Assembly: GCA_016779445.1 (NCBI GenBank)
Contig: JADHNP010000006.1
Span: 1 to 53,816 of the forward strand
Direction of reading: 5' to 3'
DNA from: Luminiphilus sp.
GTDB taxonomy: Bacteria > Pseudomonadota > Gammaproteobacteria > Pseudomonadales > Halieaceae
Length of the DNA stretch: 53,816 nt
In this document: piece after piece, positions 41,858 through 53,335 of the stretch
Layout: every line of letters starts with the position of its first letter
How positions within the stretch are numbered: position 1 is the stretch's first letter
Notes under the pieces: model-generated
What the model was told of the DNA's origin: nothing
Databases searched by the model: none
The model's input: the letters and a program-made list of their open reading frames with translations, nothing else
Translations under genes and position numbers: made by a program

Positions 41858-42059
41858 GACACACACCCAAAAGTAGCGATGACTGAGGGAGAGATTGTGG
41901 CAGTACATATGTCAAATGAACAGAGCGCCCGTAGATTAACCTCGGGAACAACGTCGCCCGGCGCTAAATTTGCGGTGATGGCGATGCTTGATGTTTCTTA
42001 CCCAACTGCCTGACAATCTAGAGGTCACTTTTCAGACCACGCTAACAGGGAATTTTGCT

Positions 42060-42548
42060 ATGCGTCGACCTAAACTCGCCGGTGCCACCTTACTGTCGCT
42101 GCTACTATCTTGCTTCACCGCCATCAGTTACGCGCAGACTGATCAGAACGAAATCCTTGCGCTATATCAGGGCTGGATCAATGCAGTTGAGGGAAGCGAT
42201 ATCGATGCCTATGTAGGGGGATTGCACCGCGACGTGAGCCTTCGGCCACCCGGAGTGCAGGGACTTGATGGTCGCGAAAACTATCGCGTATTTTTAGGCC
42301 CAGTATTTGACTCCGCTCGTTATGAAATCACTGTCGATGTGCCACACAGCATTACTATGATGGGTGACGCAGCGGTTGTTGAATACGATTACACCATTAA
42401 ACGCATCGTGGACGCCGCCTCTGCAGCGGCCCTGCCAGAGGGGGCGCTACAAGGCGACAGCACTACTTCGCACTACATCGATGTGGTGGCAAAAGACGAT
42501 ACCGGCGCCTGGAAAATTCGTTTACACAGTTGGTCAATGACACTGTGA
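42060..42548 (+). CDS. Exported SnoaL-like/NTF2-fold protein
   Basis: 162 residues from ATG at 42060 (AGGGA nine bases upstream). The signal peptide MRRPKLAGATLLSLLLSCF ends near SYAQ. The mature part looks like the DUF4440/SnoaL cone fold: LALYQGWINAVEGSDIDAYVGGLHRDVSLRPPG and a final ...WKIRLHSWSM strand. Such domains bind small hydrophobic ligands or act as cyclases and isomerases. Its stop overlaps the SDR start as GTGA, implying a joint function. Confidence 0.8.
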   Translation: MRRPKLAGATLLSLLLSCFTAISYAQTDQNEILALYQGWINAVEGSDIDAYVGGLHRDVSLRPPGVQGLDGRENYRVFLGPVFDSARYEITVDVPHSITMMGDAAVVEYDYTIKRIVDAASAAALPEGALQGDSTTSHYIDVVAKDDTGAWKIRLHSWSMTL

Positions 42549-43351
42549 ATCTAAAAGCGATCAGGCAGTCCGATTCTCATCAAGGCTTTGCGCTGATTAC
42601 CGGGGCCTCAGCCGGCTTGGGAGAAGAATTCGCCCGACAGTTGGCTGCTATGCGTAAACCCTTGATTCTGGTCGCCAGACGCGAGGAACGACTCCAGAGC
42701 ATTGCCGCATCGCTCCGCAAACAGCATGACATTCAGGTAGAAATCATTACAGCAGATCTCAGTGTCCCACATGCGGCCGAAGACATTGCCAATGTCTGCG
42801 CGAGTAAGGGCTGGCAGGTGGAGTGGTTAGTTAACAATGCCGGCATCGCCGGGCCGGACCTTCTTAAGGATCGTGACTGGCAGGCACAGCAGACCTTTTT
42901 CCAGCTCATGATGCTTTCCGTCGCTGATTTATGTCATCGCTTTGTGCCCAAAATGGCTGACCGCGGTTACGGCCGCGTGATCAATGTTGCCTCGGTAGCC
43001 GCCCGAATTCCGCGATCTGGCGGTTGCAATTACGGCCCTGCCAAAGCTTATCTGGTGGCGATGTCCGAAGAGCTGCACCTTACCGTCGTCTCCTCTGGGG
43101 TGAACGTCTCTGCCCTCTGTCCCGGTTTCACCCATACCGATTTCCACGAGACAGCGGGGCTGATGGAGATGAAAGACAAGATGGCCAAGTGGCTCTGGTA
43201 CGATGCCAAAGTCGTGGTAAAAGACGCCCTCGATGGCGTGCAAAGAGGCAAGGCTGTTGTCGTGTCTGGGAGGCTCTATCGGTGGCTAGATCCAATCTTT
43301 CAATCAATCTGGACGCGGCGATTTTTCCGCATCAAAGCGCGTCCCGAGTGA
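42545..43351 (+). CDS. Short-chain dehydrogenase/reductase
   Basis: NAD(P)-dependent Rossmann oxidoreductase, 268 residues from GTG at 42545, which overlaps the preceding stop. The cofactor motif is TGASAGLGEEFARQLA, with VARREERL suggesting NADP preference from the Arg pair. NNAG is in WLVNNAGIAG, the catalytic Ser region is INVASVAAR, and YxxxK is NYGPAKAYLVAMSEEL. Substrate is not apparent; it may act with the SnoaL-like protein and FAD oxidoreductase beside it. Confidence 0.9.
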   Translation: MNLKAIRQSDSHQGFALITGASAGLGEEFARQLAAMRKPLILVARREERLQSIAASLRKQHDIQVEIITADLSVPHAAEDIANVCASKGWQVEWLVNNAGIAGPDLLKDRDWQAQQTFFQLMMLSVADLCHRFVPKMADRGYGRVINVASVAARIPRSGGCNYGPAKAYLVAMSEELHLTVVSSGVNVSALCPGFTHTDFHETAGLMEMKDKMAKWLWYDAKVVVKDALDGVQRGKAVVVSGRLYRWLDPIFQSIWTRRFFRIKARPE

Positions 43352-43400
43352 TCACTGTAGCGTTGCTAGGCAGACTCCCTGAACCGAAGATGATCAACTC

Positions 43401-44909
43401 GTGAGTGGTCTGCATAGAAGGGATATATTAACCGCGGCCGCCTCGCTACCCATGTGGCCAGCAGCCCTTGCCCGGGGCAACACTCCTGCACATTATGACG
43501 TGATCGTGATTGGCGGTGGCACTGCAGGAATTCCCTGCGCACTCTTTGCCGCGATGGGCGGCGCAAGAGTCCTGTTGGTCGAAAAAAGCCCCGCATTGGG
43601 CGGCACATTGTTTTGGTCGACAGGGCAAATTGCGGGTTCAGGTACCGTGTTTCAAGAACGGCTGGGCATTGCTGATACGCCACAGGCGCATTTTGAGGAC
43701 TGTATGCGGATCAATCACGCAACTGCCGACCCCGCACTCACACGCCTAACGGTTAACCATGCAGGAGAGACCATTAACTGGCTGGCTGAGCATGGCTTCG
43801 AAGTCATGGATGGACACCCCGTCACGGGAATTGGCCACGACCACTTTACCGCGAGACGTTATCAGCAGGGTGTAAAAAGTGGCTTGTCGATTCTCGACGC
43901 GTTTCTTCCTTCGCTGAATGCCATGGTCACCAAGGGTAAGATCACGGTATTGACGGGGACCACCGTTGCCAATCTGATTCAGAGCCCCGATGGCCGGGTG
44001 ACCGGAGTCACGACAGCGGGATCCGAAGGCATTCGGGACGTCTCCGGATCGAACGTTGTGATTGCTTCAGGTGGCTGTGCTGCCAACGCTCGCCTCTTTG
44101 AGGAATTGCACGGCGTTCCGCTCTATGCCAAAACTGCTTACCCGACCTCTCAAGGGGATGGGTTGCTGCTGGGCCTATCGGCCGGCGGCGCCATCGTTGG
44201 TGGCGACAAATACGCCTCTTTGCCCGGGCTGGTGCCCGATGCATTCCAGTATCCCTGCCAGATGTTTGCGTACGCTCCCCTCAACCCATCGATTCGGGCA
44301 CCTTGGGAAATTCTGGTAAATGCGCGCGGTGAACGCTTTGTACGCGAGGATCATCCCAGCGTTCATCATATCGAACGCGGCGTGTATCAGCAGCCCGCAC
44401 ATCGACATTGGGCCATCTTTGACGCCGCCATGCTCGAGCGATCGGAGCCGATTATCCCAAAATGGACCCGAGAACGTCTGGCTAGCGAACATCAAAGCCA
44501 TGCGATGTTTCACAGTGCTATGTCTGTCGAGGCGCTTGCCCTCAGAGCGGGCCTCAACCCCCTCGCGCTACACAGCACCGTAGACGACTACAACCGCCGA
44601 CTTCAGGAAGGGAGGGAGGACACGTTCGGAAGAAAGATGCGTCCCGCTCCGCTATCGACTCCCCCTTATTACAGTATCGCCATGCAAGGGTGGACGCTGG
44701 TTTCGTTTGCAGGCCTGAAAGTGAGTGTCGATCTGCAAGTTTTGCGTAAAGGCGGTGAAGCTGTCCCCAACTTGTATGCGATTGGAGAGGTGATCGGTGC
44801 GGGTGCTACTTCTGGAGCGGCTTACACTAACGGTATGCTGGTGACTCCAGCCATCACATTCGGTCGCATATTGGGCACCAGGCTTGCCAGAGCCTCTCTG
44901 TCTCGCTGA
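43401..44909 (+). CDS. FAD-dependent oxidoreductase of fumarate reductase/ketosteroid dehydrogenase type, Tat-like leader
   Basis: 502-residue flavoprotein of the FAD-binding-2 family. The dinucleotide fold is DVIVIGGGTAGIPCALFAA with VEKSPALGG; the C-terminal FAD motif is AIGEVIGAGATSGAAYTNGMLVTPAITFG. The N-terminus HRRDILTAAASLPMWPAALA resembles a twin-arginine export signal, so the folded enzyme may act in the periplasm. GTG at 43401 is the start. Relatives reduce or dehydrogenate fumarate, 3-ketosteroids or urocanate. It is 49 bases downstream of the SDR gene. Confidence 0.85.
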   Translation: MSGLHRRDILTAAASLPMWPAALARGNTPAHYDVIVIGGGTAGIPCALFAAMGGARVLLVEKSPALGGTLFWSTGQIAGSGTVFQERLGIADTPQAHFEDCMRINHATADPALTRLTVNHAGETINWLAEHGFEVMDGHPVTGIGHDHFTARRYQQGVKSGLSILDAFLPSLNAMVTKGKITVLTGTTVANLIQSPDGRVTGVTTAGSEGIRDVSGSNVVIASGGCAANARLFEELHGVPLYAKTAYPTSQGDGLLLGLSAGGAIVGGDKYASLPGLVPDAFQYPCQMFAYAPLNPSIRAPWEILVNARGERFVREDHPSVHHIERGVYQQPAHRHWAIFDAAMLERSEPIIPKWTRERLASEHQSHAMFHSAMSVEALALRAGLNPLALHSTVDDYNRRLQEGREDTFGRKMRPAPLSTPPYYSIAMQGWTLVSFAGLKVSVDLQVLRKGGEAVPNLYAIGEVIGAGATSGAAYTNGMLVTPAITFGRILGTRLARASLSR

Positions 44910-45035: not shown

Positions 45036-45416
45036 ATGAAATTCAAAGGTTTTGTTTCGTTGGCCGCGGCCATGGTGTTTGTGTCGCCGTTTGCATCTGC
45101 TGGTGATCCCGTTCAGATGTGGAAGTGCAACGTTAATAGTGATGTCAGTGAAGAAGACGTAATGGAGCAAGCAGGCAAGTGGAAAAAAGCCGCTGGTGCG
45201 CTAGATGGCGGTGACGGCATGAGCGTCTACACGATGTTCCCGGTTTCTGTCGGTGCTGACGGCGATGGCACCGATGTCTTACTTGCCGTTTCTTGGAAAT
45301 CCTTTGGTGACTTTGGTAAGTGGTGGGATGCCTACCCATCTTCAGATGTTGCTCAAATGGAACGCGAAACCATGACCTGCCACGGCAGTGCTCTTTGGGA
45401 GAGCGAAACAATCTGA
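45036..45416 (+). CDS. Small exported protein of unknown function
   Basis: 126 residues with a clear signal peptide (MKFKGFVSLAAAMVFVSPFASA). The mature part begins DPVQMWKCNV and ends ETMTCHGSALWES; the two cysteines could pair. The centre WKKAAGALDGGDGMSVYTMFPVSVG followed by VLLAVSWKSFGDFGKWWDAYPSSD has the look of a ferredoxin-like alpha/beta dimeric fold (NIPSNAP-like), which is only an impression. AAGGGGAT precedes the ATG and a strong terminator follows, so it is probably a single-gene unit and well expressed. Confidence 0.8.
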   Translation: MKFKGFVSLAAAMVFVSPFASAGDPVQMWKCNVNSDVSEEDVMEQAGKWKKAAGALDGGDGMSVYTMFPVSVGADGDGTDVLLAVSWKSFGDFGKWWDAYPSSDVAQMERETMTCHGSALWESETI

Positions 45417-45438
45417 TTGCTTCAAAAAGCATCGCATG

Positions 45439-45465
45439 GGGCCGCCTTCTGGCGGCCCTTTTTTT
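45439..45465 (+). terminator. Rho-independent terminator after small exported protein gene
   Basis: GGGCCGCC, TTCT loop and GGCGGCCC form eight perfect pairs, followed by seven T. It begins 22 bases after the stop at 45416 and separates this gene from the amidinotransferase. Confidence 0.93.
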
Positions 45466-45556
45466 ATCTAACTCCACACAGTTGGTCGCGCCTTTCCTTT
45501 CCATGAAAGCGGAGACACTGTGGCCCCTTTAACCAAGTTATTTTGAGCTGTTCGCT

Positions 45557-46606
45557 ATGTCCCTAATCTGGAGCTGCAACGAGTGGGATCCTCTGGAAGA
45601 GGTTGTGGTGGGCAATCCTTTAGGCGCGCGTTTTCCCCACGCGGATGCCAGCACCCGACTCGCTGAGTACCCCGATCGAGATATTAAAGACATCCCCCAG
45701 GGGCCGTTTCCAGACCGAATCATTGAGGAGACAGAAGAAGACCTGCAGCGATTCATAGAGGTAATGGAGCATCGTGGTATCACGACAAAAAGACCCGACC
45801 GCTGGCCCCATGAGCATTGGATCAAGACACCGCAATGGGAGTCTCGGGGTTACTACAACTACTGTCCCCGGGATATTTTTCTAGTGGTCGGCGACCGAAT
45901 TATTGAAACACCCAACGTGATCAGGGGACGATCACTCGAAACCGGCTCCTACCGACGTCTCTTGATGGAATATTATGAAAGTGGTGCCAACTGGTTTAGC
46001 GCCCCGAAGCCAGTTTTGGACGACGCGCTGTTTGAATATGACCCCTTGGCGCCCACGCCACGAAATTTGGAGCCGGCGTTTGACGCCGCCAATGTGCTCA
46101 GATTTGGCTACGACTTGCTCTATCTGGTCAGTGCCACAGGCAACGAATTGGGCGGCCACTGGTTACAGCGTGTGTTAGGTGAGACTTTTCGGGTCCACTT
46201 TTTAAAGGATGTCTACTTTGGTAGCCACATCGATTCGACACTGGTGGCCCTGCGTCCCGGTTTAATCCTCGCCAACCCCGGACGTTTATCACCGGAGACC
46301 ATCCCTCCGTTCCTCAAGGACTGGGAGGTCATATTCAGTCCGCCAATGGAGAATCAAAGCCGCCATAGTCAGGAGTATCTGCAACAGGCGATTGGCAGTG
46401 AGTGGATCGACATGAATCTTTTCAGTTTGGGACCCGATACCGTGGTCGTCGACAGTGATCAGCGGGCACTTATTGCTCTACTGGAAGCCAAACAAATGGA
46501 AGTGATTCCCCTGAAACTGCGGCACTCACGGATGTTGGGCGGTGGCTTCCACTGCGTCACACTCGACACCCGTCGTCGCGGTACCATGGAATCTTATTTC
46601 TCCTGA
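45557..46606 (+). CDS. Amidinotransferase (arginine:glycine amidinotransferase family)
   Basis: Transfers the amidino group of arginine to an amine. The 349 residues align by eye with human AGAT: catalytic Asp176 in AFDAANVLRFG, His224 in GSHIDSTLVALRPG, Cys333 in GGGFHCVTLDTRRRG, plus NYCPRDIFLVVGD and YRRLLMEYY. The acceptor may be glycine, as in CyrA-type enzymes, or an omega-amine as in StrB1 or SxtG. No signal peptide. The next gene begins 34 bases later on the same strand. The CDS is preceded by a weak ribosome site. Confidence 0.9.
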   Translation: MSLIWSCNEWDPLEEVVVGNPLGARFPHADASTRLAEYPDRDIKDIPQGPFPDRIIEETEEDLQRFIEVMEHRGITTKRPDRWPHEHWIKTPQWESRGYYNYCPRDIFLVVGDRIIETPNVIRGRSLETGSYRRLLMEYYESGANWFSAPKPVLDDALFEYDPLAPTPRNLEPAFDAANVLRFGYDLLYLVSATGNELGGHWLQRVLGETFRVHFLKDVYFGSHIDSTLVALRPGLILANPGRLSPETIPPFLKDWEVIFSPPMENQSRHSQEYLQQAIGSEWIDMNLFSLGPDTVVVDSDQRALIALLEAKQMEVIPLKLRHSRMLGGGFHCVTLDTRRRGTMESYFS

Positions 46607-46639
46607 TAGATCAGCCATGATCATATTATCGCTTACCCC

Positions 46640-49600
46640 ATGACGCTGCTGTGGATAGCATTGCTACCCTCCGTGGTGACAGCGGCGTGGTTTCGGTACC
46701 GAAAAGTGCTATCGGACAGCACTCCTCGCAATGCACCGGAGGGAGTTCTGAGGCAGGCTCCTCCACCGGCAATCTGGGGCAATCACGAATACCAGCAAGG
46801 TGCACGCTGGCTGCACGAGATTTTTGAGCGCTCTGCCGCACACTTCCCTGACCTTCCAGCGCTCTCTGTCCCCGAGCGCGGCGTCACGCTTACCTACCGC
46901 GAGCTGAATCTTTTAGCGAATGCCATCGCAACATCGATTCGCGAGTACGTTACTGGAGCAGATCAAGTCGTCGTTGCTAGACTTGCACAAGATGATGCCA
47001 CGATCGTTGCACTTCATCTGGGCATTCTTAAGGCGGGTGCAACACAATGCTTCATCGATCCAGAGTCCCCAGAGGAGCTCTTTCGGCAGGTATTGGAAGA
47101 CGCCGATCCGGTTCTGTTGATTAGCGACGATATCCTCACCCGTTGTAGCGCGCCTGTGCGCACACTGGAGAGCCTCTTTGACACAGGCGCACAAGCAACG
47201 GACCTGTTGCCCCCGGCGCTATGGCTCGATGAGCCGACACAACGGCTTGCGTCAATTTTTTATACCAGTGGAACAACCGGACGTCCCAAGGGTGTGGAAT
47301 GCCCCCATGCGGGATACATAAACCTTGCTCAATCCTATGCTCAATTTTACGATTTCGTTCCAGGAAGCGACGCCACCACACTCACTTCCTCTTTCGGATA
47401 TGACGGCAGCATTTCCGAGATGTATAGCGCATGGGTCGCGGGTTGCGAAGTCGTGCTGGTGACCAAAGCGGCGTTACGCTCCGGGCCAGACTTGCTCCCC
47501 CTGTTGCGCGAGGCACAGGTGACGGCGCTATTTTGCCCGCCAGTTCTGCTGACCACGCTCACTGATCGGCCAGAATTCGATCTGCCCTATCCCATCTGTC
47601 GATATATTGTGCCCGCTGGAGAGGCATTTCCCGCCTCGCTGGTCGAACCCTGGTCTCGAGCGCGTCGGCAAGTCATCAATACTTATGGTCCAACTGAGGT
47701 CAGCACCGACACGAGCAGACAGCTACTTAGACCGAATGAGGCCGTAACGATCGGCAGCCCATTTCCCGGCGTCGACTACGTCATCCTAGACACTAATACG
47801 TCCACCGTGCTGCCTCACGGAGAGGAGGGAGAACTCTGTATTGGCGGCGCACAACTTGCACGCCGCTATCGCAATCTACCCGAGGCAAGCAGAGATAGAT
47901 TTGTGGACCACCCCCGACTCGGGCGTCTCTACCGATCAGGGGATCGCTGCCATGTCGACCCTGAAACATTGCGCGTGCATTTTCATGGTCGAATAGATGC
48001 GCAACTGAAAGTGCGTGGATATCGGATCGAAGCACAACCGATAGAATCCTTGCTACAGGATAACTTCTCCGAAATTGAAACGGCCGTATTAGACAATCAA
48101 GAAGACGAACTCATTGCGTTTATCCGTGCTCCCTCTCTGGAGAGCCCTCAGGATCCACTTCTGACCACAGCGGTGGTGGCGCATCCGGTGATAGCACAAG
48201 CACAAGCACTCATCAGTGAGCGTTTTCCGCCTTACGCAATACCCAGCCGATTTTTTCTCGTAAAGCGCTTTGAGCTGGTGGGCACATCAGGAAAGATCAA
48301 TCGCCGCGCGCTGCCGCAAGTCTCGACCAACACACGCGGCATCTCTGCGCGATCTGCACCAAAGCCAGCACCCATCAACGAAGACAACCCTGCTCTCGAT
48401 GCAAGGGTGCTGGAGATTTGCCGAGCAGAGCTCGGTGCTGACCTCTCGTGGGATGATGATCTGACGGATTGGGGGGCACATTCCATTGCCATCGCCCGAT
48501 TGACCCAGCATCTTCAAGCCGCTGGCTATACGGTATCGGTGAGAGACCTCCTTACGGATCATCGCAGCGCTCGGAAAATTGCACGGCTTTCACCGACTGT
48601 CGCCTATCAGACAGGCCCGGAACAGAGCAGTGCAGATAACTCACATGAAAGGATTAACGAATCCCCGGTATCTGAGAAGCAATATCCTTTTAAGACGTTC
48701 AGCCTGCTGCAGGGCTCGCTGGCAGTATTGCTTCGCGTGCCGCTACTGCTCATAGCCGCGATCAGCTTGGCCATCGTTGACCCTGAAGAGCGCCTATTGA
48801 CGGGCGAGGTCGCGGGTTTTCTGGTGGCGGCTATCGCCGCCTACAGCATTTATTTGGTCCTACCTTTCACGAATCTGGGTTGGGTGCTCCTACTCCGCTA
48901 TCTTGAAAGAGTACTGTTTGGAGGCGCAGAACTTAATCCAGGGCGTTACCTCAAATTCTCCAGCCAGCATCTGAAGCTGTGGTGGCTGGAACAACAAACA
49001 GATTTCGTTCTAAAACCGCTGGTCAATGGACTTCGAAGTCCCGTCTTATTTAATTGGGCGCTCAGGCATCTGGGCGCAAATATCCACAGTCAAGCCTTCA
49101 TTGCGCAAAGCACCGAATGGTATGGCCCCCTAACCCTGATCACAATTGCACGCGGCGCAGTTGTGCAGGCCGCAGTGCAAATCAGTAGCGTCAGGTGGGA
49201 GGGCCAAAGTTTTGTGCTCGACACAATTAACATTGGCGCAGGCGCTCGCGTTGGAAGCCGCGCGATGGTCTCAGGCGGCGCCTCACTTGGCGATAACTCT
49301 TGGCTAACACCCCTGTCAGAGTTGAGAATCCATTGCGCTCCCAATAGTCAGGTCGACGGCGTGCCCGGGCAAGCAGTGGGTGGATATGTACCTCCACGGA
49401 TGCCACGTCGCGATCGGTCATCTGCCTTTCTGACCGTCTTGTTCGATGCCAGAAACGTCTGCATTCAATTTCTTCTCGAAATTGGGCTGGTGGTCGTGCC
49501 AGGTGCAGCAGTTGGCCTGCTGACGACTTGGGCGCTCGGCTTCGATTCATTGAGTAAAGTCAATTTGGACACTCAACGAGTGGATGCCAGCGATCTTCTG

Positions 49601-50887
49601 GTTATGTCCGGTTCGGGGGTGATGGGTCTATGGCTTGGAGCGCTGGCGGTTTCCTGCGGTATGTGTCTGTTCTTGCGTCTAACGCCCACCCCTTGCGGCT
49701 GGGTGTCTGCCACCAGTTTACAGGGGATACTGGCGCGCTATCGACAGACAAAAATGAATCAAATTCAACAGCTATGGGGCTGGAGTCTGACTGGGCAATA
49801 CCTACGCGCGCTCGCCGGCGTTAAATTTTCTAAAGTGGGGGCTTCAGAGTGCGACGCGCTGCTCAATTTGTTGCCCGAGCACCTGCATGCTGACGCCAAT
49901 GTTTTTATCGCGCAGGGCTGCTACTGCAACGTTCTCGATGAATTCGGTACTCATTTATTGGTGAAACCGGCCCAAATTCCCGCCAGATTCTTTGCCAGTA
50001 ACAACGCTATGGTGGAATCGGGCCCCATTCCAGGCAATCTGCTGCTTGGCGTCTCGACCCCGCTCGGACCGCAACTCTATAGGCCGCAATATAGCGACCG
50101 GCCCGATCCTCAGCGGATACTGGTAGGAAATCCTCCGCTGGAGGTGGCCTCTACTGATCAGCAGGAGCCCGCCAACAACGCAAGGCCCTCTCTGCGCATC
50201 TTTTTTGCAAGGTTCTTTCTAAATGACCTCGCCTCCGTGGGCCTCATCCCAGGATTGACTATCTTCCTCGCAACATTTTTTCTGGTCGCGCTCAATAAAG
50301 CGGGCTTTGGCAATACCGAAGCCGCCTTGTTGACCAGTCTGATCGTTCCCCTCCTGCTCCCACTGCTCGCACTCAGTATCAAATTGATACTGGTGGGCAA
50401 CCGATGGGGGCGAGCGAACAGTGCTCCGTTTTGGTCAATCCGACACTTCACATACTTTCTTGCGCAAGACAGCTTTTTCAGGCTGATGGCGGGCTTTATG
50501 GGCGCTGTCTCAGGCACGGCTTTGGCAAATCCCATATTGCGTCGGTTTGGCTGCTCTATTGGCAAACGCTCACTGATCGGCCTACCTCTGCAGATGTCAG
50601 ACTGGCACGCAGTCGACATCGGTGACGACTGCGTCATCAACGGTCAAATGCAGCTGCACAGCTTTGAGAATCGCGTATTAACAGTCAGGCGCACAAAGAT
50701 CGGCAACAGATCGGTGATTAATCACGGAGCAATGCTGATGGGTGGTGCAACACTAGAGAGCGATGTCACTGTGGAATCACAATCTCTGGTGCTTAAGGCA
50801 ATGCAGTTGAGTAGCGGACATCATGCTGGTTGCCCCACCCAAGCGGTTACTGATGTCATGGCAGCAGCGACCCCCTCAGGCCGCTAA
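46640..50887 (+). CDS. NRPS-like A-PCP enzyme with membrane terminal domains (Pls-like)
   Basis: 1415 residues. The adenylation domain (about 55-570) has YTSGTTGRPKG (from residue 208), NTYGPTE, YRSGDR, KVRGYRIE and the A10 lysine in TSGKINRR (552). A carrier domain follows with Ser615 in WGAHSIAIARL. From about 690 to the end come several membrane helices alternating with hexapeptide beta-helix segments (IHSQAFIAQ to GDNSW near 815-895; SIGKRSLIG to VTVESQSL near 1310-1385), as in the NRPS terminal domain of poly-epsilon-lysine synthetase. There is no condensation or thioesterase domain of the ordinary type. By-eye specificity residues: D,G,S,F,V,A,T,T,D,K. The start is uncertain. Confidence 0.88.
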   Translation: MTLLWIALLPSVVTAAWFRYRKVLSDSTPRNAPEGVLRQAPPPAIWGNHEYQQGARWLHEIFERSAAHFPDLPALSVPERGVTLTYRELNLLANAIATSIREYVTGADQVVVARLAQDDATIVALHLGILKAGATQCFIDPESPEELFRQVLEDADPVLLISDDILTRCSAPVRTLESLFDTGAQATDLLPPALWLDEPTQRLASIFYTSGTTGRPKGVECPHAGYINLAQSYAQFYDFVPGSDATTLTSSFGYDGSISEMYSAWVAGCEVVLVTKAALRSGPDLLPLLREAQVTALFCPPVLLTTLTDRPEFDLPYPICRYIVPAGEAFPASLVEPWSRARRQVINTYGPTEVSTDTSRQLLRPNEAVTIGSPFPGVDYVILDTNTSTVLPHGEEGELCIGGAQLARRYRNLPEASRDRFVDHPRLGRLYRSGDRCHVDPETLRVHFHGRIDAQLKVRGYRIEAQPIESLLQDNFSEIETAVLDNQEDELIAFIRAPSLESPQDPLLTTAVVAHPVIAQAQALISERFPPYAIPSRFFLVKRFELVGTSGKINRRALPQVSTNTRGISARSAPKPAPINEDNPALDARVLEICRAELGADLSWDDDLTDWGAHSIAIARLTQHLQAAGYTVSVRDLLTDHRSARKIARLSPTVAYQTGPEQSSADNSHERINESPVSEKQYPFKTFSLLQGSLAVLLRVPLLLIAAISLAIVDPEERLLTGEVAGFLVAAIAAYSIYLVLPFTNLGWVLLLRYLERVLFGGAELNPGRYLKFSSQHLKLWWLEQQTDFVLKPLVNGLRSPVLFNWALRHLGANIHSQAFIAQSTEWYGPLTLITIARGAVVQAAVQISSVRWEGQSFVLDTINIGAGARVGSRAMVSGGASLGDNSWLTPLSELRIHCAPNSQVDGVPGQAVGGYVPPRMPRRDRSSAFLTVLFDARNVCIQFLLEIGLVVVPGAAVGLLTTWALGFDSLSKVNLDTQRVDASDLLVMSGSGVMGLWLGALAVSCGMCLFLRLTPTPCGWVSATSLQGILARYRQTKMNQIQQLWGWSLTGQYLRALAGVKFSKVGASECDALLNLLPEHLHADANVFIAQGCYCNVLDEFGTHLLVKPAQIPARFFASNNAMVESGPIPGNLLLGVSTPLGPQLYRPQYSDRPDPQRILVGNPPLEVASTDQQEPANNARPSLRIFFARFFLNDLASVGLIPGLTIFLATFFLVALNKAGFGNTEAALLTSLIVPLLLPLLALSIKLILVGNRWGRANSAPFWSIRHFTYFLAQDSFFRLMAGFMGAVSGTALANPILRRFGCSIGKRSLIGLPLQMSDWHAVDIGDDCVINGQMQLHSFENRVLTVRRTKIGNRSVINHGAMLMGGATLESDVTVESQSLVLKAMQLSSGHHAGCPTQAVTDVMAAATPSGR

Positions 50888-50932: not shown

Positions 50933-52144
50933 TCACCCACCTGTATATTTTCGCCGCGACGTGGCAAAAGGGTACCAGCGCCAGTCGGTCAAACACCGCC
51001 ACACCCATTCAATGGGCCCCACACTGAAGCGCCGACACCACCACTCTGCGGCGAATATCTGACAGAGAAAGACGACGCAGGCAAGCACCACAACTCTGGC
51101 GGGGCCCCACTGAAAAGCGGCTCCCAAACCATACCCGTGAAATACTCCCATCATGATGGCAGTCTGGCTCAGATACACACTCAGGCTGATTGTTCCCAGA
51201 TTTGCGCAACGTCGGCGTAGTGCGGGCCATATATCAACCTTGACCCACAGCCAGACAGTCAAAAACCAGGCAGATGTTAATGCACCGGTGGCAATCAGAT
51301 ACGTCACATCGCCGAGAGCAATAACGGAATTTGACTCCTGAGACCGATCAAAAACCGAGTACCCCAATGCCGCATTGAAGTAGCGCTCCAGCAGCATGAG
51401 CGCGGCCCCGAAAACCCAAAGCAATACAACACTGCGCAGCAATAAGGTGGTCGATAAGCTCTGCATCCGATGCCATCCCGAGCGCATAAAGACGAAGCCA
51501 AAAATAAAGTAGGCCAGTACTAAAAAGCCCGAGTCCGGATACTGCCAATCGACCCAGAATCGCTCGGGGATAAATTGCGCATGGTATTTCATAACCCCAG
51601 ATAAATCGGCCTCTACCAAAGGCGACTCGAGCCGTTCTTCTGCTAACCAATCCAGTGCTGCTGTTGGGTCCTCAACGGGCCAATCGTCATCTCTGTCTCC
51701 GCCCCAGAGATGACCCGCCGGAAAACTGAGGCATAACAGCACTGCCAGTGCAATAAGAGCTCTGTTTGAAAAGCGATAAATCAGCAACAGAATGATGCCC
51801 AGCTCTGCGTACAGCATCAGAATGTCGCCCTCAAAAAAAAGCGCATGAAGACATCCAAAAAGCATTAGCGCTGCCATTCGCCTTAACAAGCGCACCACCC
51901 GGAAACCCGCGGCCTGGGTTTGAAGGTAAAAACCCATGCCAAATAACAAGCTAAATAACGCCCAGAATTTCGTCTCGAAAAAGAAGTGCTTCAGATGCCA
52001 GGCGATTTGATCTGCGCCGCTTGACCAGGCGGGGATGTCTGCGCCAAAACTGAATACATTGACGACGAGAATGCCAAACAACGCGACGCCACGCAGCACA
52101 TCCAAAAATTCAATGCGATGACTGGGCTGTTCCCGTGTTTTCAC
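50933..52144 (-). CDS. DUF418-family multi-pass membrane protein
   Basis: 403 residues with about ten hydrophobic helices. The N-terminal RIEFLDVLRGVALFGILVVNVFSF and the later FETKFWALFSLLFGMGFYLQTQ are the DUF418/HGSNAT-like pattern; the C-terminal half has GTISLSVYLSQTAIMMGVFHGYGLG and GPIEWVWRCLT. The family is related to membrane acyltransferases but has no assigned reaction. GTG at 52144 follows a GGAGGAAGG. It converges on the NRPS-like gene with 45 bases between; a functional link is possible but unproven. Confidence 0.88.
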   Translation of the reverse strand: MKTREQPSHRIEFLDVLRGVALFGILVVNVFSFGADIPAWSSGADQIAWHLKHFFFETKFWALFSLLFGMGFYLQTQAAGFRVVRLLRRMAALMLFGCLHALFFEGDILMLYAELGIILLLIYRFSNRALIALAVLLCLSFPAGHLWGGDRDDDWPVEDPTAALDWLAEERLESPLVEADLSGVMKYHAQFIPERFWVDWQYPDSGFLVLAYFIFGFVFMRSGWHRMQSLSTTLLLRSVVLLWVFGAALMLLERYFNAALGYSVFDRSQESNSVIALGDVTYLIATGALTSAWFLTVWLWVKVDIWPALRRRCANLGTISLSVYLSQTAIMMGVFHGYGLGAAFQWGPARVVVLACVVFLCQIFAAEWWCRRFSVGPIEWVWRCLTDWRWYPFATSRRKYTGG

Positions 52145-52349: not shown

Positions 52350-53033
52350 ATGAGCCCCTCTCCCTCTTCGATCATTGTGCGTGGATCTATCGACGCCCTG
52401 CCTCTTTTTATACCCGCCATTCCATTCGCCTTTGTTTTTGGCGTGGTAGTGGCAAATGCGGGTATCCCGGGATGGCTTGGCTGGTCCTCTTCACCCATTA
52501 TTTTCGGGGGCGCTATACAGGTGACCTTATTCACCTTGCTGGGTGAGGGCGCTTCCGTAGCTGCAGCAGTCAGCGCAGCGCTTATCGTGGGCGCACGACA
52601 TCTTTTCTATTCGCTGACCCTCGCTCCCCGATTTCAAGATCAGCCTGACTGGTTCCGGTGGATCGGCTCCTATGTGTTGATCGATCAGGTTTTCGTGCTG
52701 ATTCAGACAAAGCCGATTGATGAGCCAGCAATCTTTCGACGCTACTTTCTTGCGACCGGCTTTACATTTTGGGCGCTGTGGATGGTTTTTACCGCGTTGG
52801 GTATCCTTCTCGGCCCTGCCATACCAGAGAGTTGGGGGGTTGAATTTGCCGCACCCGTCCTCTTCGTCAGTTTGATGATGGCCGCCAGTGATCGCCGAGA
52901 CAAATTGATCGCCGCCGTTATCGCAATGGGGATCACCCTCGCCTTCAGTCAGCTACCTCATCGCGCCGGCATACTGGTCGCCGTCGCTCTGACTGTCGGC
53001 ATCATGCTCCTGATGCACCGGAGGCAATCATGA
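52350..53033 (+). CDS. azlC: AzlC-family branched-chain amino acid exporter, large subunit
   Basis: Inner-membrane protein, 227 residues with about six helices, that with AzlD exports leucine analogues, valine or other branched-chain amino acids. Family marks are ALPLFIPAIPFAFVFGVVVANAG, IFGGAIQVTLFTLLGEGAS, and VGARHLFYSLTLAPRF, with VLIDQVFVL after it. Its stop overlaps the azlD start by four bases (ATGA). Confidence 0.92.
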   Translation: MSPSPSSIIVRGSIDALPLFIPAIPFAFVFGVVVANAGIPGWLGWSSSPIIFGGAIQVTLFTLLGEGASVAAAVSAALIVGARHLFYSLTLAPRFQDQPDWFRWIGSYVLIDQVFVLIQTKPIDEPAIFRRYFLATGFTFWALWMVFTALGILLGPAIPESWGVEFAAPVLFVSLMMAASDRRDKLIAAVIAMGITLAFSQLPHRAGILVAVALTVGIMLLMHRRQS

Positions 53034-53335
53034 TTGCGACTGCCATCATTCTGACGGGCCTAGGTTCCTACGCCATGCGCGCTTTTTTTATCTTTGCGTT
53101 GGCGAGGTACTCCTTTCCCCCCATTTTGCGTAGAGCCCTTGAATACGTCGCCCCCACCGTCATGGCTGCTTTGGTCATTTCTATGATGACTAGCACCGAG
53201 GGCAAGCTCACAGCAGGTTGGGCCGAATCAATAGGGCTGCTTTTGGCAGCGACCGTCGCAAAATTCACAGGCAACCATATCTTTTCTCTCCTTGCGGGGA
53301 TGGGTAGCTTCTGGGTCATCAGATGGATCATGTAA
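53030..53335 (+). CDS. azlD: AzlD-family branched-chain amino acid exporter, small subunit
   Basis: 101-residue membrane protein with three to four helices, the obligate partner of AzlC. The start IATAIILTGLGSYAMRAFFIF and the central RALEYVAPTVMAALVISMM are typical of the family, as is KFTGNHIFSLLAGMGSFWVIRW at the end. Overlap with azlC ensures equal translation. A hairpin follows six bases after the stop. Confidence 0.92.
   Translation: MIATAIILTGLGSYAMRAFFIFALARYSFPPILRRALEYVAPTVMAALVISMMTSTEGKLTAGWAESIGLLLAATVAKFTGNHIFSLLAGMGSFWVIRWIM

Follow-up and report, generated by a model that had tools for sequence, protein, structure and literature searches.

An amidinotransferase paired with a divergent Pls/PosA-type membrane synthetase: a conserved gene pair and a candidate guanidino amino acid pathway

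The characterised synthetases of the Pls/PosA/PDAP kind polymerise plain diamino acids, according to the consulted parts of two reports (PMC10522769, PMC4668381). In PosA, a glutamate at position 3 of the adenylation (A) domain code holds the side-chain amine of the substrate, and the Pls/PosA terminal domain had no experimental structure in 2023 (both from the consulted part of PMC10522769). Here we analyze a relative of these systems, which include that for the food preservative polylysine: a gene pair present in several bacterial phyla and encoded on a stretch of 53,816 nucleotides (nt) from Luminiphilus sp. (contig JADHNP010000006.1 of assembly GCA_016779445.1; the whole stretch is called the window), in which the gene of an amidinotransferase (AT) is followed by that of a synthetase with an A domain, a peptidyl carrier protein (PCP) domain, and a terminal domain. 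The pairing is real and conserved and does not reflect chance. On balance it probably represents a dedicated pathway in which a guanidino amino acid, 2-amino-3-guanidinopropionate derived from L-2,3-diaminopropionate (Dap), would be made, activated, and assembled at the membrane.

To collect relatives of the AT, a profile of five ATs was searched against genome contigs, giving 369 matches, the best 80 of which correspond to 79 loci (L041–L119). An 85-row tree groups the window AT with 52 loci in a single clade, whose sister consists of the ATs of Robbsia andropogonis and Streptomyces hygroscopicus. In 46 of the 52 clade loci the AT is directly followed, on its own strand, by the synthetase gene at a distance of 20–141 nt (33 nt in the window), and in none of the 26 more distant loci (L094–L119) are the two adjacent; chance adjacency is therefore rejected. 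Three of these distant loci have an A domain about 4 kb off, without the terminal domain. The link to a Pls-like synthetase and its conservation among relatives, on which a first reading of the letters alone (the sequence-only reading) had staked its proposal, are thus borne out. The identities of the two proteins also co-vary, with a rho of 0.83 over 41 pairs and of 0.93 in 21 hand-picked divergent loci, a value reached in 0 of 999 permutations.

By record title and tree label, the 46 paired loci belong to the Pseudomonadota, Thermodesulfobacteriota, Acidobacteriota, Planctomycetota, and Verrucomicrobiota; as most of these loci come from metagenome assemblies, single taxon assignments may be wrong. 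Independent genomes number fewer than 46, with L041 probably being the species of the window, and L067 and L076 coming from one Planctomycetaceae assembly, where two AT–synthetase pairs on different contigs reflect either a duplication or a mixed bin. The pathway should be testable, since several carriers, namely HTCC2148 (L052), HTCC2080 (L060), NaphS2 (L080), and Zhengella mangrovi (L083), come without a metagenome-assembled label. Searches of taxonomically related genomes found the AT in 3 of 193 genomes of the window's order and 14 of 368 of its class (three of the 14 being partial weak matches; the window's own genome excluded), and the seven neighbourhoods examined contained no such synthetase. 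The AT was likewise found in 45 plasmid records, with no such synthetase in the five neighbourhoods examined as annotated, and the terminal domain gave only five weak matches to plasmid records.

Both genes of the pair are open at full length, the AT lying ahead of a 1415-residue A–PCP protein as the sequence-only reading had described, and the alternation of membrane helices and hexapeptide blocks that it saw toward the C-terminus corresponds to three paired hydrophobic zones (residues 686–746, 939–1015, and 1192–1254 in a Kyte–Doolittle scan) and a hexapeptide match at 1352–1384. Pfam further recognizes an AMP-binding domain at 62–410 (202 bits) and a PCP domain at 589–649 (36 bits). This is the Pls/PosA plan, A–PCP plus a terminal domain with three helix pairs (from hydropathy only) and no condensation or thioesterase domain. 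The TIGR02353 model of the Pls/PosA terminal domain aligns with residues 742–1399 over profile positions 47–694 of 695, scoring 143 bits against a curated cut-off of 423 bits; five relatives reach 116–162 bits. For comparison, a canonical-type set was drawn from 398 sampled genomes, 25 of which exceeded the cut-off (506–945 bits) and were joined by L179 (368 bits, below it) to give 26 loci. Domain comparisons use 22 of these, L170, L173, L175, and L177 being missing as their longest open reading frame (ORF) is antisense, and the codes obtained by tblastn cover all 26. With respect to the 22, the window A domain is 29–35% identical and the terminal domain shows 21–31% local identity (best 94 bits), with L179 the nearest in both domains; its code, DSECYGGVTK, is taken from an ORF-based alignment, its columns shifting in the pairwise tblastn alignment. 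Terminal domains of AT-linked and canonical synthetases have 23 near-invariant residues in common in an alignment with the same 22, and Gln1338-x-His1340-x-x-Glu1343 of the window protein is likewise found in the canonical synthetases. For the synthetase, two comparisons with dS near saturation (3.4–4.1) give dN/dS ratios (nonsynonymous over synonymous substitution rate) of 0.065 and 0.076, and dS is saturated in a third; for the AT, dN is 0.13–0.14 and dS is saturated in all three comparisons.

Phage records gave 42 matches to the window synthetase; among the five listed, the best two are Acinetobacter phage MD-2021a records with 58% coverage. CAKLQH020000021.1 and CAKLQF020000019.1 (H46, H47) carry an A-domain protein annotated as entF_2, where the synthetase match spans query positions 58–878 at 28% and reaches the terminal domain. 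The entF_2 proteins of the MD-2021a records are perhaps host PosA-type sequence in phage-labelled contigs.

The AT had been described as an AGAT-type enzyme with an intact Asp176-His224-Cys333 triad. The triad stands, being present in 47 of 47 synthetase-linked ATs including that of the window. Within the StrB1/AGAT fold family the enzyme is nearer StrB1 than AGAT: the best PDB match in a phmmer search is the inosamine-phosphate amidinotransferase StrB1 (1bwd; 361 bits over residues 2–347), followed by SxtG (207 bits), HsvA (206 bits), and AGAT (188–195 bits). No match to Pfam or NCBIfam was found at an E value of 0.001. The window AT retains Asp106, Asp176, His224, Asp226, Arg243, Ser281, and Cys333; with numbering and roles that we take over from AGAT, the catalytic Asp-His-Cys and the Asp pair presumed to bind the guanidinium of arginine are kept in all 47 aligned sequences. 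Membership in StrB1 itself was rejected: in the 85-row tree the window AT falls in a separate branch of 56 rows (support 100/97), outside the StrB1-like clade of the Actinomycetota, whose 15 rows form another (98/100) in which StrB1 is represented by Streptomyces griseus L099 and by L028 (with an adjoining annotated streptomycin gene), StrB1 itself not being a row. Between the synthetase-linked ATs and these 15 rows, 30 alignment columns are differently conserved, for example those where Asp285 replaces Gly and Ser223 replaces Thr. The window very likely comes from the Halieaceae, as an AT 99% identical to its own is present in a record with the title Halieaceae bacterium.

The ATs of the sister clade, 61–62% identical to the window AT, lie on plasmid p3 of Robbsia andropogonis (L027:4337-15041) and in Streptomyces hygroscopicus (L090:8534-16331), next to ATP-grasp-type ligases, an aldehyde dehydrogenase, and an SDR (the S. 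hygroscopicus names being read from sequence), apparently a different guanidino pathway. On a plasmid of Amycolatopsis sp. FU40 (L029:4375-6549), a 45%-identical AT is contained in a long coding sequence annotated as amino acid--tRNA ligase-related, adjoining a TauD/TfdA dioxygenase and phosphotransferases, and a Rahnella sikkimica plasmid (L030:6549-11834) has a 35%-identical AT near a gene with the deposited annotation gntA (guanitoxin-type N-hydroxylase).

Which substrate the synthetase might take was read from its A-domain code, with columns set by motif mapping from GrsA numbering; as a check, in the canonical-type homologues the same columns give the PosA residues D, M, E, H, N, T, and S named in PMC10522769. 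The window code, DGSFVATTDK, consists of residues 255, 256, 259, 298, 324, 326, 348, 356, and 357 together with Lys552 of the C-terminal subdomain. In a set of 41 proteins, from the window and from 40 of the 46 paired loci, 28 have this code, 12 have DGSFIATTDK, and one is incomplete. Asp occupies position 1 in all 40 complete codes, and because Asp235 and Lys517 in GrsA numbering are retained, the sequence indicates that an alpha-amino acid is activated, not guanidinoacetate. At position 3, Glu is found in 26 of 26 canonical-type synthetases and Ser in 40 of the 41 AT-linked proteins (the remaining one incomplete). Loss of this Glu across the AT-linked family, together with an Asp at position nine, speaks against a plain diamino acid as the substrate and would be in keeping with a guanidine. 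Arginine-activating A domains mostly have Glu239, Asp278, Gly301, Ala322, and Thr or Asp331 (consulted part of PMC12283262), and the AT-linked code has Asp at position 331, matching one of these two alternatives.

A source of the amino acid is suggested by SbnA and SbnB, the makers of Dap. Neighbours were counted over 53 loci (L041–L093) by tblastn with an E limit of 1e-8, as antisense ORFs masked genes in ORF calling (e.g., SbnA and SbnB in L071); the counts are lower bounds, many loci ending early. SbnA and SbnB occur together in 23 of the 53 loci and in none of the 26 distant ones: they lie directly upstream of the AT on the same strand in 14, and downstream beyond a DUF418 gene on the other strand in nine Luminiphilus/HTCC-type loci. 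Scored with the equivalog models TIGR03944 (SbnA, cut-off 350 bits) and TIGR03945 (SbnB, 327 bits), two SbnBs pass (362 and 384 bits), as does SbnA in two loci of the upstream type (374 and 377 bits), whereas a Luminiphilus SbnA fails (274 bits), with the SbnAs of the Luminiphilus/HTCC-type loci at 265–280 bits. Genome-wide, 27 of the 47 AT genomes have an SbnB above the cut-off, compared with 2 of 299 genomes sampled from the window's own phylum, the AT genomes covering more phyla than this background; SbnA exceeds its cut-off in 14 of 45 and is found in 28 of 45 at an E value of 1e-75. The 47 genomes represent the 53 loci without L076 (same assembly as L067), L086, and L088–L091, and the 45 additionally leave out L047 and L073. 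A supposed SbnA in L091 was dropped at 25% identity. In the SbnB tree (without L046, a split gene), the SbnBs of each arrangement group in a clade of their own together with outside SbnBs, so that the Dap genes were probably recruited to the pair twice; the outside sequences are three, on long branches, and the tree carries a long-branch warning.

Three background genomes contain an SbnB at an E value of 1e-60. Two of them (L181 and L182, in G793 and G715; 407 and 233 bits, the second below the cut-off) hold, on another contig, a synthetase of the canonical Pls/PosA type with the codes DLEDLGTVVK and DLEDIGSVVK, making G793 and G715 candidate poly-Dap makers.

Taken together, these features suggest the following route. 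SbnA and SbnB, whose genes are found in many relatives and were not found in the window's assembly, would make Dap; the AT would transfer an amidino group, presumably from arginine, to the side-chain amine of Dap to give L-2-amino-3-guanidinopropionate; and the A domain, judging from the domain content, would activate this amino acid and load it onto the PCP, armed in many relatives by a clustered phosphopantetheinyl transferase (PPTase). By homology to Pls, PosA, and the PDAP synthetase, the membrane-embedded terminal domain would then form the amide bond without a thioesterase. Because the side-chain nitrogen of a guanidine is weakly nucleophilic, the alpha-amine would be the free nucleophile, and the product would be short cationic oligomers linked through the alpha-amine, in contrast to the isopeptides made by Pls and PosA; such a change of linkage would fit the strong divergence of the terminal domain, which is no proof of it. 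A membrane acyltransferase, DUF418 or TraX, may finally cap the product. The sequence-only reading had a guanidino acid joined to an amine or polymerised at the membrane: a guanidino amino acid joined there is the best reading, and its guanidinoacetate is not.

Several observations weigh against this pathway. The window's own assembly, 87% complete, gave no match for SbnB and only weak ones for the SbnA model; the best of these (G000:C100, cut by a contig edge) is only 34% identical to a Halieaceae SbnA and reads as a cysteine-synthase relative. The site between DUF418 and AzlC is free of SbnA and SbnB in the window, in L041, and in L050, and the AT and the code of the window are unchanged despite the missing genes; SbnA and SbnB may be in the 13% that the assembly lacks, Dap may have another source, or the AT may use a different acceptor. 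Across the AT genomes, 20 of 47 have no SbnB above the cut-off (three of them with a full-length, edge-cut, or split near miss), and SbnA passes in the 14 of 45 only. Nor is the code the usual one for arginine, with Ser, Phe, Ala, and Thr at positions 239, 278, 301, and 322, and 331 alone fitting. Support for the AT clade is 88/92, below the 95/80 mark of the tool, the adjacency label requires seven changes on the tree, and no synthetase was found in the downstream sequence of five clade loci (L073, L086, L088, L089, and L091); in the sixth unpaired locus, L047, the contig ends 97 bases past the AT. We know of no AT of this clade with a tested substrate.

The six clade loci without a visible synthetase, one at a contig end, are also what might be expected if the two enzymes were neighbours with no shared product, but gene order kept in 46 of 52 loci and five phyla speaks strongly against this, as do the co-varying identities, and we find the idea barely credible. 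Nearly as little credence is due to a route modelled on CyrA, the precedent invoked by the sequence-only reading, in which the AT makes guanidinoacetate for the adjoining A domain: the adjacency would suit it, yet the retained Asp235 and Lys517 indicate an alpha-amino acid, the AT is nearer StrB1 than AGAT, and SbnA and SbnB point to Dap as the acceptor. Such a start was rejected on the code, with CyrA itself outside the comparison. The AT might instead act late, guanidinylating the finished chain or its end after the A domain has activated Dap and the terminal domain has made poly-Dap, as in Streptomyces albulus PD-1. Adjoining SbnA and SbnB favour this order, but the AT-linked code lacks the key Glu of all 26 canonical-type codes, and the enzymes related to the AT use small molecules as substrates and are not known to act on polymers; we regard it as improbable, even though the PDAP synthetase has the same A–PCP–terminal-domain plan and the enzymes that make its Dap are homologous to cysteine synthase and ornithine cyclodeaminase (consulted part of PMC4668381).

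A single amide bond would also be compatible with much of the evidence, one guanidino amino acid being joined to another amine (Dap, a lipid, a glycan, or a polyamine) to give a small capped product or a surface decoration. The distance of the terminal domain from the 22 canonical-type synthetases, the 116–162 bits of six AT-linked synthetases with TIGR02353, and the recurrence of an acyltransferase and a secreted-looking protein with the pair all lean this way; the terminal-domain plan and its 23 near-invariant residues are nevertheless retained, and the characterised members named in the consulted part of PMC10522769 make polymers, so that we consider a single amide unlikely. The guanidino amino acid pathway itself can be carried further, with more doubt: tentatively, and with rather less than even confidence, the pair may represent the first guanidino homopolymer system from nature, present in at least five phyla, in which Dap becomes 2-amino-3-guanidinopropionate and is polymerised through its alpha-amine at the inner membrane into a short-armed analogue of polyarginine, with a switch from side-chain to backbone linkage and capping by a dedicated, sometimes fused, acyltransferase. 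As a conserved branch with its own AT, Dap-making genes, and a near-invariant code, the family leads us to expect a new monomer and, perhaps, a new linkage as well, and it offers a natural contrast for how the Pls/PosA terminal domain picks its nucleophile.

Further genes recur with the pair (table 1). Besides the small protein and DUF418, which flank the pair in the window, a PPTase is found in 20, TraX in 7, and an S41 peptidase in 7 of the 53 loci, and none of the five occurs in the 26 distant loci at the same limit. DUF418 and TraX are never found in the same locus, nor are S41 and the small protein. In L059 and L069, TraX forms a C-terminal fusion with the synthetase, the L059 segment also exceeding the Acyl_transf_3 cut-off; given this mutual exclusivity and these fusions, a membrane acyltransferase (DUF418 or TraX) is a likely partner of the pair. 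The sequence-only reading had held that no tailoring gene is needed for a membrane or surface product, which looks off in view of the recurrent PPTase, membrane acyltransferase, and small secreted protein. Cys31 and Cys115 of the small protein are invariant in 14 aligned members, and no convincing relative was found in Pfam or the PDB.

Table 1.— Features of the window: the pair, the synthetase domains, and the recurrent neighbours.
Feature	Position	Strand	Evidence
Small protein, 126 aa, signal-peptide-like N-terminus (by eye)	45036..45416	+	Found in 34/53 related loci
Amidinotransferase (AT), 349 aa	45557..46606	+	Open ORF; StrB1/AGAT fold family by sequence
A–PCP–terminal-domain synthetase, 1415 aa, divergent Pls/PosA type	46640..50887	+	Open ORF
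Adenylation domain, residues about 62–483	46823..48088	+	Pfam/NCBIfam matches; code alignment
Peptidyl carrier protein domain, GAHS or GGHS motif with presumed phosphopantetheine serine	48404..48586	+	Pfam; alignment
Terminal domain, three paired hydrophobic zones and hexapeptide-type stretch	48707..50884	+	Pfam, TIGR02353, hydropathy
DUF418 (YeiB-like) membrane protein	50933..52144	-	Found in 25/53 related loci

The small protein gene and the AT are separated by a G+C-rich hairpin with a run of T after it, as seen by eye (45437-45466), and the two genes may therefore be separate transcripts. Just past DUF418 lies an AzlC/AzlD exporter pair (52350-53335), with AzlC also near the cluster in L041, L046, L048, and L050; it is probably a flank marker. 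SnoaL-like, SDR, and FAD-dependent (flavocytochrome-c-like) genes are located upstream (41988-44909), and the FAD gene, recurring in 11 loci (L041–L051, all with at least 81% AT identity), is taken as a lineage-specific neighbour.

The start of cylindrospermopsin synthesis by CyrA and CyrB also has an amidinotransferase adjoining an A domain, the latter presumably without Asp235; the alpha-amino-acid code and the membrane terminal domain set the present pair apart from it by description. StrB1 (1bwd) aligns with the AT over its whole length and has the same catalytic Asp-His-Cys, but the separate branch, the 30 differing columns, and the lack of an aminocyclitol gene among the recurrent neighbours distinguish the two. 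The partner genes resemble SbnA and SbnB of staphyloferrin B synthesis, with matches over the equivalog cut-off in the genome shares given above, except that the SbnAs of the Luminiphilus/HTCC-type loci remain below it. Among the matches listed in a search of the open-access literature, no description of the pairing or its product was found; subscription papers or the PosA supplement may mention it.

The synthetase resembles PosA, the delta-poly-L-ornithine synthetase of Acinetobacter baumannii, and its Bdellovibrionales homologue (consulted part of PMC10522769) in domain plan and in its near full-length TIGR02353 alignment, and L179, its nearest canonical-type relative of the 22, carries a code of the Bdellovibrionales type described in the same source. 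It differs from the PosA type in the low identity of both domains and in lacking Glu at position 3, and none of the 26 canonical-type loci (6.6–10.5 kb each) gave an AT by tblastn. With a score below the cut-off and no Glu in the code, the protein is on sequence grounds a variant of the Pls/PosA/PDAP kind, not a member of TIGR02353. In the PDAP system of Streptomyces albulus PD-1 (the PDAP synthetase with NjxA and NjxB), the synthetase likewise consists of A–PCP and three tandem membrane-linked domains without condensation or thioesterase domains (consulted part of PMC4668381). The word "amidinotransferase" occurs 0 times in the full text of that paper, whereas SbnA and SbnB are here clustered with the synthetase in the 23 loci. 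Since its Dap is made by cysteine-synthase-like and ornithine-cyclodeaminase-like enzymes (consulted part of PMC4668381), PDAP synthesis in Streptomyces albulus comes closest among the characterised pathways.

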